This document shows, piece after piece, positions 19,109 to 51,644 of a stretch of DNA of 64,000 bases. The stretch is from Paludibacteraceae bacterium (GTDB taxonomy: Bacteria > Bacteroidota > Bacteroidia > Bacteroidales > Paludibacteraceae): NCBI GenBank assembly GCA_024689005.1, contig JAILDU010000043.1, positions 16,017 to 80,016 of the forward strand, given 5' to 3'. The notes below the pieces were generated by a model. It made no database searches and was not told where the DNA came from. It worked only from the letters and a program-made list of their open reading frames with translations. The translations under genes and the position numbers were made by a program. How positions within the stretch are numbered: position 1 is the stretch's first letter; the number at the start of each line of letters is the position of its first letter.

Positions 19109-19113
19109 TGTTT

Positions 19114-19155
19114 ACACACTACACATTACGCATCAAACATTAAACATTAAACACT
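19114..19155 (+). repeat. 7-nt-period array forming the leader of the 736-aa OmpA gene
   Basis: Six heptamers: ACACACT, ACACATT, ACGCATC, AAACATT, AAACATT, AAACACT. They end one base before the ATG at 19157, so the array sits where the ribosome would bind. Confidence 0.8.
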
Positions 19156-28301: not shown

Positions 28302-28323
28302 TTTTTTCTAAATTAATATTTTT

Positions 28324-28379
28324 ACACAATACCCATTACACACTACACACTACCCATTACCCATTCCCTTTTCAATTAA
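28324..28379 (+). repeat. 7-nt-period array (8 units)
   Basis: ACACAAT, ACCCATT, ACACACT, ACACACT, ACCCATT, ACCCATT, CCCTTTT, CAATTAA in one unbroken phase. It is the most regular heptamer array in the window and lies just upstream of the small - strand ORF. Confidence 0.85.
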
Positions 28380-28390
28380 CGGTCGATCTC

Positions 28391-28447
28391 GAGACAATCC
28401 TAGACAATACAGCGGGTAATTAGCGGGTCTTAAGCCACTCTCGCGCT
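28391..28447 (+). repeat. 10/11-nt-period array ending in a conserved tail (copy 1)
   Basis: Two AGACAAT units lie 10 nt apart and two AGCGGGT units 11 nt apart (28411 and 28422), followed by AGCCACTCTCGCGCT (28433-28447). The block 28418-28447 matches 48598-48627 at 25 of 30 positions, and there too it follows an 11-nt array. Confidence 0.65.
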
Positions 28448-28483
28448 ACTTTTGCCCCTTCGACTTTATTTGTGTTGTCGCTC

Positions 28484-30016: not shown

Positions 30017-30051
30017 AACTATCAACTGTCAATTATCAATTATCAATTACC
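30017..30051 (+). repeat. 7-nt-period array (5 units)
   Basis: AACTATC, AACTGTC, AATTATC, AATTATC, AATTACC, intergenic, upstream of the PRiA4_ORF3-like gene. Confidence 0.8.
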
Positions 30052-34292: not shown

Positions 34293-35998
34293 GAAAATAT
34301 CTTTTCGCAGCTGCGCTGCTTCTTTCAACATTCAACATTCAACATTCAACAGTCATTGCCTGCACCAATTTTCTGGTTGGTAAGGACGCTTCGGTAGATG
34401 GCAGTACTATCATATCATACGCAGCCGATTCATACGCGTTGTATGGCACCTTGCGTTTTTCACCTGCCACCGATTGGCCCGCCGGCGCTATGCGCGAGGT
34501 TAAAGATTGGGATACCGGACGCCCGCAAGGATTTATTCCGCAAGTAAGCCATACATACAAGGTGGTTGGCAATATGAATGAACACCAAGTCACTATCGGC
34601 GAAACTACTTGGGGAGGACGCGAAGAACTGTGGGATACGATAGGTGTAGACTACGGTAGCCTCATCTATATCGCCTTGGAACGTAGTCGCACTGCACGCG
34701 AAGCGATTGAGTGTATGATTTCTTTGGTCAATGAGTTTGGGTATGCCAGCGAGGGAGAGTCTTTCTCTATTGGCGATCCCAATGAAGTCTGGATAATGGA
34801 TTTGATTGGCAAAGGAAAAGGACAGAAAGGAGCTCTGTGGGCTGCTGTCCGTATTCCGGATAACGCAATCAGTGGTCATGCCAACCAGGCACGTATTACT
34901 ACTATCCCGGTTGGAAAAACTAAACTGACCAAAGAGCAAAAACGCTTGGAGAAGAAACTGAATTGCGTCTGCAATGGAGATTGGATGTATGCTCGGGATT
35001 TGATTTCTTTTGCTCGCGAGAAAGGCTATTTCACTGGTAAGGATGCAGAGTTCAGTTACCAAGAGGCATATGCGCCGTTCGACTTCTCGGGCTTATTCGT
35101 TTGCGAGGCACGTGTATGGTCGTTCTTTCGCCATTTTAGAAGCGACATGGACCGCTATTATGATTATGCCGCCGGAGTCACTTTCTGCGAGACAAATGGA
35201 AAAAATGCAGGAGAACATATGCCGTTGTGGATCGTGCCTGAGCACAAAGTGAGTGTGCAGGATATCAAAGAGTGTATGCGTGACGAATACAAAGGAACCC
35301 CGTTGGATATTACGCAGGGCACAGATGCCGGTCCATGGAATAGTAAATTGCGCTATGGCGGACTCGGCTTCAAACTGACAGACCCGGTAGATACAGCGAA
35401 AACGACGCAATATTGGTATGAGCGCCCGACTGCAACGCAGCAAACGGCATGGTCCTTTGTGGCACAAATGCGAACAGACAAACGTGGTATCTTTTGGTTT
35501 GGTGTAGATGATGCCGCATGCAGTTGCTATGTGCCAATGTATTGCTGTATCAATACTGTCCCCGAGTGCTTCGCTGAGAACAATGGAGATCTTTATACCT
35601 ATAGCCCGACGAGCGCGTGGTGGACCTTCAATGTTGTAGCCAATTGGGCATATACCAAGTACAGCCGCATGTATCCGCATATTCGCGAGCAGCAAATGGC
35701 CTGGGATGATAAGTTCAACACCCAGGTAGCAGGCATAGATGCACAGGTAGCTGAAATGAATGATGAAGAAGCGTGTGCCTTCCTGACCAAATATAGTTGC
35801 TCACAGGCCGAGAATGTCGTGGCTGATTGGCAGCGTCTGGGTATTTATCTTATGACTAAGTTCTTGGATGGACAAGAACGCAAGGAGGAGAACGGACATT
35901 TCAAACACAATTCGTATGGCAATAGTTGCAGTCCGGATCGTTTGTCTTTGCCGGAGACTTTCTTGCGAAAAGTTGCATCAGAAGTAACACATGAGTAA
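34289..35998 (+). CDS. C69-family dipeptidase
   Basis: 569 residues. Peptidase family C69 are N-terminal-nucleophile dipeptidases. 'ACTNFLVGKDASVDGS' gives the nucleophile Cys25 directly after the signal peptide, so processing would expose it. 'EHQVTIGETTWGGREEL' (about 90-110) and 'SEGESFSIGDPNEVWIMDLIGKG' (about 150-175) are family motifs. The signal peptide is unusual: after MRKYLFAAALLLS it reads TFNIQHSTV, encoded by a 7-nt tandem array (34324-34351). The start overlaps the glycogen synthase stop (ATGA). It is probably periplasmic or extracellular and used in peptide catabolism. Confidence 0.92.
   Translation: MRKYLFAAALLLSTFNIQHSTVIACTNFLVGKDASVDGSTIISYAADSYALYGTLRFSPATDWPAGAMREVKDWDTGRPQGFIPQVSHTYKVVGNMNEHQVTIGETTWGGREELWDTIGVDYGSLIYIALERSRTAREAIECMISLVNEFGYASEGESFSIGDPNEVWIMDLIGKGKGQKGALWAAVRIPDNAISGHANQARITTIPVGKTKLTKEQKRLEKKLNCVCNGDWMYARDLISFAREKGYFTGKDAEFSYQEAYAPFDFSGLFVCEARVWSFFRHFRSDMDRYYDYAAGVTFCETNGKNAGEHMPLWIVPEHKVSVQDIKECMRDEYKGTPLDITQGTDAGPWNSKLRYGGLGFKLTDPVDTAKTTQYWYERPTATQQTAWSFVAQMRTDKRGIFWFGVDDAACSCYVPMYCCINTVPECFAENNGDLYTYSPTSAWWTFNVVANWAYTKYSRMYPHIREQQMAWDDKFNTQVAGIDAQVAEMNDEEACAFLTKYSCSQAENVVADWQRLGIYLMTKFLDGQERKEENGHFKHNSYGNSCSPDRLSLPETFLRKVASEVTHE
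34324..34351 (+). repeat. Perfect 7-nt tandem repeat (4 units) inside a signal peptide
   Basis: Four exact TTCAACA units encode the residues TFNIQHST just before the catalytic Cys of the C69 dipeptidase. Three units (21 nt) would keep frame; one or two would shift it. Confidence 0.9.
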
Positions 35999-38228: not shown

Positions 38229-39815
38229 TTGAGAACTTATAAGCACATAGTATTTCTGCTTGCTGTTCTGTTGGCAATTCTCAATCGTCAATTGTCAACG
38301 GCTCAGACCATGGTCTATCTGGAGCGGGCCGAAACTCTGGACTTTGACCAGGAGCGCATTGCCGACGCACAAATCCTGCGCGGCGATGTCGTCTTTCGTC
38401 ATGAGGAGGCTTTGATGTATTGCGATAGCGCATATTTCTACGAGCAGACCAACTCATTGGATGCCTTCGGGCATGTACGCTTCGAGCAGGGCGATACACT
38501 ACGAGGATTCGGAGAAGCGCTCTTCTATGACGGCAATACCAAGATTGCCCATCTGCGCCATAATGTCAAGTTAATACATGGTCTCGAGAAAGGACCGCGA
38601 GGCAGTAAGGGCAATCCAACTATCTTGACAACGGATAGTTTGACTTATGATCGCAACGAGAACTTGGCATACTACTATACGGGAGGTACTATTGCTGATA
38701 CACTCAATACATTGACCTCCGTGCGTGGTCAGTACGCACCGAATACCAAGCAGGCGGTCTTCAGCGAGCAAGTGCGATTAGATAACCCAAAGTTTATCTT
38801 GACCAGCGATACACTCATCTACAATACTGAGACTAAAGTTACTGATATAGTTAGTCCGACGACCATTGTTTATGAAAAAGAAACCACTATTCGCACTTCC
38901 CGAGGTTGGTACAATACCGACAACGAGCAATCTATGTTATTGGACCGATCAGTTGTGGAACATGCCGATGGCAAGATGATGACAGGCGACACTATCTATT
39001 ATGACAAAGCGATTGGCTACGGGCGCGTCTTGGGCAAAATGGAGATGAGAGACTCTGTCCAGCAAGCCACTCTTTACGGCAACAAAGGCGAGATGTGGGA
39101 GACGGACAGCCGAGGTTATGCTACTGATAGTGCTTTGATGGTCGATTGGTCCGACGAGGAACATTATGCCTATATTCACGCAGATACACTCTTTACAGAG
39201 GAAATGCATTATACCGACAGCGCCAAGACTGATAGCACATATCGCCGCGTACGTGCCCATTACGGCGTGCGTGTATTTAGAGATGACATGCAGATGAAGT
39301 GTGACTCTATGATCTATTTGGGCAGCGATTCTACTATTCACCTGTTCACCGACCCCATCTGTTGGAGTGACAATCAGCAAATATCCGCAGATAGTATTAC
39401 TGTCTTCATCGTAAACGAGAAGGTTGATCACGCAATCGGTACAGGCAATGCGTTAACGGTTATGGAGGATTCTGCCGGAGTGTACAACCAGATGAGTGGC
39501 AAAGAGATTACGGCTACTATGCATGACGGAGAAGTTGAGCTGATAGACATCAGCGGAAATGCACTCACCATCTACTATCCTAAGGAGGAAAATGGTGACT
39601 TGGTCGGCATGAATACCACCGAAAGCAGTTTTATCCGAGTCTATGTCAACAATCGTGAAGTAGAACGTATCCGATTCACCAAAGAGACAACCGGAGTCCT
39701 CTATCCTATGGACCAGATACCGGCCGGCGGTGATCGATTAGCGTCTTTCTTTTGGGCAAGCAAAGTTAGACCAACCGACCCGATGGATGTGTTCCGAAAA
39801 GTTGACGATTTTTAA
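38229..39815 (+). CDS. OstA/LptA-like lipopolysaccharide-transport protein
   Basis: 528 residues from a TTG that directly follows the SurA stop codon. No other start would keep the signal peptide (MRTYKHIVFLLAVLLAILNRQLSTAQ). The mature protein is a long run of beta-jelly-roll strands with OstA motifs: 'LDFDQERIADAQILRGDVVFRHEEALMYCDSAYFYEQTNSLDAFGHVRF' and repeated 'L.GDTI.YD' units. It is much longer than LptA of Proteobacteria, as usual in Bacteroidota. It probably forms part of the periplasmic LPS bridge. The end of the signal peptide is encoded by a 7-nt array (38275-38302). Confidence 0.87.
   Translation: MRTYKHIVFLLAVLLAILNRQLSTAQTMVYLERAETLDFDQERIADAQILRGDVVFRHEEALMYCDSAYFYEQTNSLDAFGHVRFEQGDTLRGFGEALFYDGNTKIAHLRHNVKLIHGLEKGPRGSKGNPTILTTDSLTYDRNENLAYYYTGGTIADTLNTLTSVRGQYAPNTKQAVFSEQVRLDNPKFILTSDTLIYNTETKVTDIVSPTTIVYEKETTIRTSRGWYNTDNEQSMLLDRSVVEHADGKMMTGDTIYYDKAIGYGRVLGKMEMRDSVQQATLYGNKGEMWETDSRGYATDSALMVDWSDEEHYAYIHADTLFTEEMHYTDSAKTDSTYRRVRAHYGVRVFRDDMQMKCDSMIYLGSDSTIHLFTDPICWSDNQQISADSITVFIVNEKVDHAIGTGNALTVMEDSAGVYNQMSGKEITATMHDGEVELIDISGNALTIYYPKEENGDLVGMNTTESSFIRVYVNNREVERIRFTKETTGVLYPMDQIPAGGDRLASFFWASKVRPTDPMDVFRKVDDF
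38275..38302 (+). repeat. 7-nt-period array (4 units) inside a signal peptide
   Basis: CAATTCT, CAATCGT, CAATTGT, CAACGGC encode residues AILNRQLSTA at the cleavage region of the OstA-like protein. This is the same peptide (NRQLST) as in the array at 745. Confidence 0.8.
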
Positions 39816-39827
39816 GATTATGTCACT

Positions 39828-39882
39828 ATCGAACGCATATCGAAGTCATCTCGAACTCACATCGAGGTTAAATCGAGGTTTC
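39828..39882 (+). repeat. 11-nt-period array (5 units)
   Basis: ATCGAACGCAT, ATCGAAGTCAT, CTCGAACTCAC, ATCGAGGTTAA, ATCGAGGTTTC. CGA recurs every 11 nt without a gap. It fills most of the spacer between the OstA-like gene and the small barrel gene. No ORF crosses it. Confidence 0.85.
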
Positions 39883-39934
39883 TTCGCAACAAATATACAT
39901 ATAAAACATGCGATTTTTTAAGATTTCAATATAT

Positions 39935-48503: not shown

Positions 48504-48545
48504 CTATTCATTCTCCATTCACTCTTTGATTCTTTGACTGTCAAT
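48504..48545 (+). repeat. Degenerate 7-nt-period array (6 units)
   Basis: CTATTCA, TTCTCCA, TTCACTC, TTTGATT, CTTTGAC, TGTCAAT, directly after the rpsT terminator and before the 11-nt array. Confidence 0.6.
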
Positions 48546-48555
48546 TACGAGAAAG

Positions 48556-48627
48556 ACCTAGGTGATACCTAGGTGATACCTAGGTTATACCTAGGTTATT
48601 TAGCGACCCTTGAGCCACTCTCGCGCT
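48556..48627 (+). repeat. 11-nt-period array (4 exact-length units) with conserved tail (copy 2)
   Basis: ACCTAGGTGAT twice, then ACCTAGGTTAT twice (48556-48599), followed by the tail ending AGCCACTCTCGCGCT (48613-48627). The tail matches 28418-28447. Each unit contains the self-complementary ACCTAGGT, so single strands could form many alternative hairpins with the adjacent terminator. Confidence 0.85.
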
Positions 48628-48656
48628 CACAAAAACCCGAAAAGTAGCATGTCTGT

Positions 48657-48688
48657 TTGCACATATCGTTTTTTTGTAGTATCTTTGT
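48657..48688 (+). promoter_or_regulatory. Promoter of the SusC-like receptor gene
   Basis: TTG at 48657-48659, a 20-nt spacer and TATCTTTG at 48680-48687. Confidence 0.8.
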
Positions 48689-48742
48689 GCCCGTTTTCAA
48701 TTAAGAAGGAATATACACCTTATGATTATTAATAATGCTATT

Positions 48743-51487: not shown

Positions 51488-51530
51488 TTAACCAAATATC
51501 ACATTCTATGTGCTGGTTGGATTCGTATCA

Positions 51531-51574
51531 ATAAAACCCCGATAAAACCCCGATAAGAGTTCGATGGTAAATTG
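51531..51574 (+). repeat. 11-nt-period array (3-4 units)
   Basis: ATAAAACCCCG twice exactly, then ATAAGAGTTCG and ATGGTAAATTG. Read from CGA, the units align in phase with the array at 39828 (CGATGGTAAAT against CGAGGTTAAAT). Confidence 0.8.
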
Positions 51575-51612
51575 AGAAAAAGGAAATCCTTAATAAAAAG
51601 TGATGTGCGTGC

Positions 51613-51644
51613 TTGCGTATATCACTTTTTTGTATTATCTTTGC
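51613..51644 (+). promoter_or_regulatory. Promoter of the NlpC/P60 gene
   Basis: TTG at 51613-51615, a 20-nt spacer and TATCTTTG at 51636-51643. Confidence 0.8.

Follow-up and report, generated by a model that had tools for sequence, protein, structure and literature searches.

Results

In the window, the 64,000-nucleotide stretch analyzed here from a Bacteroidales genome of 1.96 Mb (107 contigs, 89% complete), a phased 11-bp array made up of six units, each with CG at its positions 7-8, occupies 39824-39889 on the + strand, between an OstA-like gene and a gene for an outer-membrane beta-barrel protein. The first-pass annotation had described five 11-nt units with CGA at a constant place at 39828-39882 (ATCGAACGCAT ATCGAAGTCAT CTCGAACTCAC ATCGAGGTTAA ATCGAGGTTTC), which direct reading confirmed and Tandem Repeats Finder also called. 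The array exceeds chance expectation; scored with an 11-bp unit matrix (consensus nnnTnwCGaGn) whose training set excluded the window, 39824-39878 reached 34.4 bits over five units and was the sole match in the window above 16 bits over five units. The array contains no copy of the invariant core described below and is a core-less member of its family.

A direct repeat brackets the array on the + strand, its left copy (CGATTTTTAAGATT, 39806-39819) overlapping the OstA-like gene at its stop codon and its right copy (CGATTTTTTAAGATT, 39911-39925) preceding the outer-membrane-protein gene. In genome G027, the same two genes have an array between them in its own vocabulary (TCGGTATCTTA units), with a similar flanking repeat at the same place (L181); in G026, G031, G003, and G002, there is no array and the genes almost abut. 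No direct repeats like those at 39806 and 39911 were seen around other arrays, and a search for flanking target duplications at 35 arrays (no random control) gave best matches that scored 4-8 at scattered distances, compared with ~14 bp at the window locus.

A second phased array lies at 51526-51580 on the minus strand (TCGAACTCTTA TCGGGGTTTTA TCGGGGTTTTA), between genes for a TonB-receptor plug protein and an SH3-NlpC/P60 protein, so both arrays do sit in spacers between unrelated genes, as had been reported. The unit matrix, trained without the window, found this array too (51526-51569, minus strand, 18.0 bits over four units), and its minus-strand reading over 51531-51574 is CATCGAACTCTTATCGGGGTTTTATCGGGGTTTTATTGA. 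The proposed kinship of the two arrays therefore stands at the level of the family, but not as a common + strand phase: because the second array is on the opposite strand, the base-by-base + strand correspondence drawn earlier (CGATGGTAAAT with CGAGGTTAAAT) is a coincidence, and phase over 11.7 kb is meaningless.

The window holds further short arrays. A third 11-nt array, at 48545-48608 (+ strand) between rpsT and the TonB-receptor plug gene, consists of ACCTAGGTGAT units, a unit family apart from the CG family; arrays of this type (here and at L146 194-271) are rich in the rare tetranucleotide CTAG. Tandem 7-nt arrays occur at 19112-19153 (TTAAACA), 28322-28365 (TTACACA), 30020-30049 (TATCAAT), and 34324-34355 (TTCAACA), and heptamers predominate among the arrays of several congeneric genomes (G014, G017, and G007). 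By eye, several arrays have downstream of them a regular promoter-like sequence, approximately TTGCRTATATGCAA...TAnnTTTGC (window 48655-48690 and 51615-51640; L140 and L144).

The 11-nt arrays recur throughout the genome, where a spaced TCGA pattern had 64 forward and 65 reverse matches and its reversed control none. The first-pass annotation had asked for an autocorrelation scan of intergenic DNA and had allowed that the lag-11 signal might be no higher than in shuffled sequence, or the array found nowhere else. The signal is genome-wide: in a 417-kb sample, lag 11 was the strongest lag (z 14.8), followed at its multiples by lag 22 (8.6) and lag 33 (3.6). Some contigs of this sample were picked for bearing arrays, so densities are inflated while the lag-to-lag contrast is unaffected. 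A 924-kb sample contained 144 arrays at lag 11, compared with 1-33 at each of lags 7-10, 12, and 13, and all but 3 of the 144 lay outside coding sequence as delimited by a simple gene caller of our own. With 18 bits over five units as the minimum score, the unit matrix found 223 matches in this sample at pitch 11, compared with 0-3 when the pitch was set to 8-10 or 12-14.

Within long arrays, the unit families differ and the register is still kept, and units are common to several loci within one species. Among spacers of at least 100 bp, arrays were about equally frequent in the tandem (29%), divergent (41%), and convergent (30%) classes, and we rejected an association with promoters or terminators; in tandem spacers, the arrays lie closer to the end of the upstream gene.

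Many arrays surround a core, CAATCCTAGAC. Its 10-mer AATCCTAGAC was the most over-represented in a k-mer census of the sampled DNA (56 copies against 0.10 expected, a ratio inflated up to about twofold as the sample includes stretches fetched for holding the core). The 26 copies of this 10-mer with a single mismatch equal the 26 of a reversed-word control, with no excess. In the entire 1.96-Mb genome, there are 56 exact copies of AATCCTAGACNNTA, or ~28 per Mb. In complete elements, the invariant site at the center reads (C/T)AATCCTAGAC followed by approximately WWTAC. The window contains a core-bearing element at 28373-28449 (+ strand), in which CAATTAACGGT CGATCTCGAGA precede the invariant core CAATCCTAGAC (28395-28405, + strand) and AATACAGCGGG TAATTAGCGGG TCTTAAGCCAC TCTCGCGCTAC follow it. 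The family suspected in the first-pass annotation thus exists, although this core copy had been overlooked and the coding copies described below were outside its view.

The units flanking the core are constrained at particular positions. Of 324 flanking units, 287 (89%) carry CG or GC at position 7-8 (CG in 214 and GC in 73), compared with 5% at other phases. Aligned on the core, the nearest units carry CG/GC in 91-98% of cases, and the signal decays on both sides, sinking to the background level near units -7 and +6, so the ends of the element are gradual. Information in these core-flanking units, not in every core-less array, is concentrated at positions 4, 7, 8, and 10, with 0.74-0.87 bits at 7, 8, and 10 and ~0.05-0.09 bits at 2, 5, and 11, and such unevenness does not fit uniform decay of a repeat. 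Conserved phase among varying bases, as had been claimed, is therefore supported, but the accompanying view that selection acts on spacing more than on sequence is not, because the CG/GC step is itself under constraint and the core does not vary.

Direct-repeat polarity is identical on both sides of the core. Cores in spacers favor the C-rich strand by 36:13 (p 0.0014), a bias that may partly be a consequence of the core's own C-richness, and within tandem spacers there was no strand preference relative to the genes (16 versus 10). We found no RNA structure in the elements (mean z -0.77 and -0.29). Some copies sit in dispersed repeats of 500-750 bp with 84-90% identity (L224, L226, L233, and L243, and partly L138, L210, L206, L204, and L139), which hold the core element followed by GTCGCTATGGTCCCG...GATCCGCTGACGAACATA and an 11-nt array of TTATTATGTGA.

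Cores also occur inside genes, both in variable protein linkers (ValRS, an ABC-F-type ATPase, and a DAHP synthase-chorismate mutase fusion) and in conserved enzymes (DapA, UGD, PurD, a Sua5/YrdC protein, a MiaB/RimO-like radical-SAM protein, and ArgS). In ORFs of at least 200 aa, the in-phase CG/GC fraction was 0.74 in the source genome and 0.54 in relatives, compared with 0.03-0.13 at other phases. As 11 is not a multiple of three, codon structure cannot produce this pattern. The dapA and ugd products align without gaps to core-less orthologs in the source genome, which excludes insertion or slippage there; these collinear copies were therefore built by substitution. A constraint or drive acting on the DNA itself must have governed the substitutions that made the phased coding copies. 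Orthologs of seven genes keep the core at the same position between species whose codons for the same amino acid agree at only 36-60%; most of these loci had been found through the core, so that the identity of the core is ascertained and its common position is not.

The core is restricted to a single genus of rumen-associated Bacteroidales. Counting the source genome, AATCCTAGACNNTA was found in the genomes of 24 of 61 species of the genus, with almost no control matches and up to 18 copies per genome outside the source genome. A stricter form had one match among ~390 other genomes of the order, which we take as chance. In relatives, 42 of 64 cores were phased, compared with 3 of 640 shifted-phase tests, and none of 25 chance cores in viral contigs was phased, which led us to reject carriage of the element by phage. 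Arrays of ATCGA in named genomes matched many phyla, but a phased core was present at none of those loci. One species-specific version (G009 C24:13848-13910, L279) carries three cores in tandem with a 22-nt period (CAATCCTAGAC AATACCCGTAC).

Spacer positions of the core turn over: among the relatives' loci examined, orthologous cores shared with the source genome were found only in coding sequence and none in spacers. We saw no evident equivalent of the core in 220 kb each of the core-less species G014 and G017. Core-less congeners mainly have 7-nt arrays (in G014, 31 at lag 7 and 13 at lag 11), and species lacking the core have arrays of 7, 8, and 9 nt at the same spacers and in the same linkers of proteins, so part of array formation is unrelated to the 11-bp pitch. 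In 314 kb from other Bacteroidales, we saw no such tendency to form short tandem arrays. The element with the phased core resembles a structure built upon a general tandem-array background of the genus.

Discussion

We put the probability at just under one half (about 0.48) that the array at 39824-39889 belongs to a genus-specific element that is recognized as double-stranded DNA and has a role in structure or regulation. Each element is a row of degenerate 11-bp sites (~nnnTnwCGaGn), all in the same direction, which places the constant CG on one side of the helix at each turn. Complete elements center on an invariant site, with weaker sites fading over about five turns to either side. A putative protein would bind cooperatively, head to tail, with one protomer per helical turn, anchoring on the core where it is present and spreading or wrapping along ~120 bp; arrays without a core, 39824-39889 among them, would serve as secondary sites. 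The first-pass annotation had offered either side-by-side protein binding on one helix face or phased bending. Judged by the phase and the position-specific constraint, binding is the best reading, and bending alone leaves the CG/GC preference unexplained. We infer that the purpose is more likely chromosome organization or regulation than a role at any single operon. Against a recognition element stand the lack of a single-mismatch excess, the turnover of spacer positions, the arrays of other periods, and the core-less state of the window array, which could belong either to the core-element layer or to the background-repeat layer, though its matrix match is strong.

We weighed this reading against three others. 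The exactness of the core is what one would expect of an uptake or recombination-drive motif like the Pasteurellaceae USS, in which a receptor prefers the exact core with phased flanks and recombination both disseminates and restores the motif; regulatory sites of the usual kind are less exact than such cores, a point made for uptake sequences (PMC1626085). In USS, perfect copies outnumber near-perfect ones, copies are enriched in spacers and also found in coding DNA, flanks are spaced by about one helix turn, and the motif is family-wide with subclade versions (PMC1626085). The element here similarly has a short exact core with far more perfect than single-mismatch copies, is enriched in spacers yet also present in genes, has flank contacts one helix turn apart, and exists across a genus in related versions, each specific to its species. 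ComEC was found in 34 of 37 genomes, but core-less species have it equally, and it therefore does not discriminate. USS and the DUS of Neisseriaceae occur about once per kb, far more densely than this core. They also have no orientation bias (PMC1626085), whereas the spacer cores here are biased with GC skew, and up to about five phased units stand on each side, with core-less phased arrays in addition; the parts of the USS literature consulted describe no long multi-unit arrays. As density and orientation do not fit, we do not class the element as an uptake sequence, and we regard this origin as rather unlikely, although among functional alternatives it is the leading one.

The arrays could instead be neutral or selfish minisatellites that arose in unconstrained DNA when strands slipped or switched template between short homologies (TCGA and CGAG), with units copied between loci by recombination. 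Such an origin would suit arrays in spacers of every orientation class and in protein linkers, the 7-, 8-, or 9-nt arrays of sister species in the same linkers, the units shared among loci, and the absence of the window array between nearly abutting genes in four genomes. It is the best account of the arrays with other periods and perhaps covers some core-less 11-nt arrays, the window array possibly among them. As an explanation of the family as a whole, we consider it unlikely: the core-flanking units do not differ merely by uniform decay and are uneven in information across positions, decayed cores do not rise above background, phased cores stand in collinear coding sequence without duplication, and chance cores lack phase. 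Insertion of a small MITE-, RUP-, or RPE-like mobile element at many sites would explain about 57 dispersed copies, the location of some of them within the 84-90% identical repeats (L224, L226, L233, and L243), and the direct repeat around the window array. The collinearity of coding copies with core-less orthologs, where an insertion relative to the orthologs would be looked for, largely refutes it; in addition, the arrays have no consistent flanking duplications, the hairpins or terminal inverted repeats of MITEs and palindromic repeats (RPE and REP) were not found, and the ends are gradual rather than sharp. We consider a mobile element very improbable.

For the recognition element, two known systems show, by analogy, how proteins can read rows of repeats. 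BldC, a MerR-like protein, binds head to tail on direct repeats of variable number, with one protomer per repeat and asymmetric polarity (PMC5859096). The elements here share the direct repeats, the variable number, and the polarity, but BldC repeats are 9 bp, lie at promoters, and have no genome-wide invariant core. ParR of plasmid R1 binds 11-bp direct repeats in parC, and the DNA wraps around the bound protein (PMC9426499); parC is a single plasmid locus beside parM/parR, whereas here there are ~90 chromosomal clusters in half a genome, also in genes. A fixed near-helical pitch with uniform polarity, as in sites of such head-to-tail binders, was found at pitch 11 only.

Known repeat families differ more. 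Long simple sequence repeats of prokaryotes have near-identical units of 5-11 bp and lie in spacers, and are not known to have a conserved core or position-specific constraint. TAACTGA heptamer direct repeats occur in Beggiatoaceae, Cyanobacteria, and some Bacteroidetes, including Paludibacter, as many dispersed short arrays, mainly intergenic with some in ORFs and of unproven function (PMC4679880), much as here. Those repeats are, however, 7-nt copies of one fixed word, mostly near start codons in the best-studied genome, whereas the arrays here have 11-nt units of variable words with a constant CG and no link to start codons or strand. In the literature searched, we found no phased family of 11 bp from Bacteroidetes. 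We therefore raise, tentatively and as somewhat doubtful, a previously undescribed class of chromosomal element, with an invariant core, an array of one contact per turn extending ~60 bp each way, polarity following GC skew, spread into genes and spacers by substitution, and a vocabulary diversifying by species. If real, this class would imply that Bacteroidales have a one-face DNA-binding machine for organizing the chromosome or exchanging DNA.

A motif of such strength, shaping spacers as well as coding sequence throughout a genus, points to a putative DNA-recognition system. Should the element prove to be a nucleoprotein site, it would lead to a chromosome-organizing protein, of which, to our knowledge, few are known in this group. 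Should it prove to be an uptake motif, it would show which rumen bacteria exchange DNA, and we know of no earlier example in Bacteroidales. On either reading, the sequence of the element would be a ready probe with which to fish out its protein.
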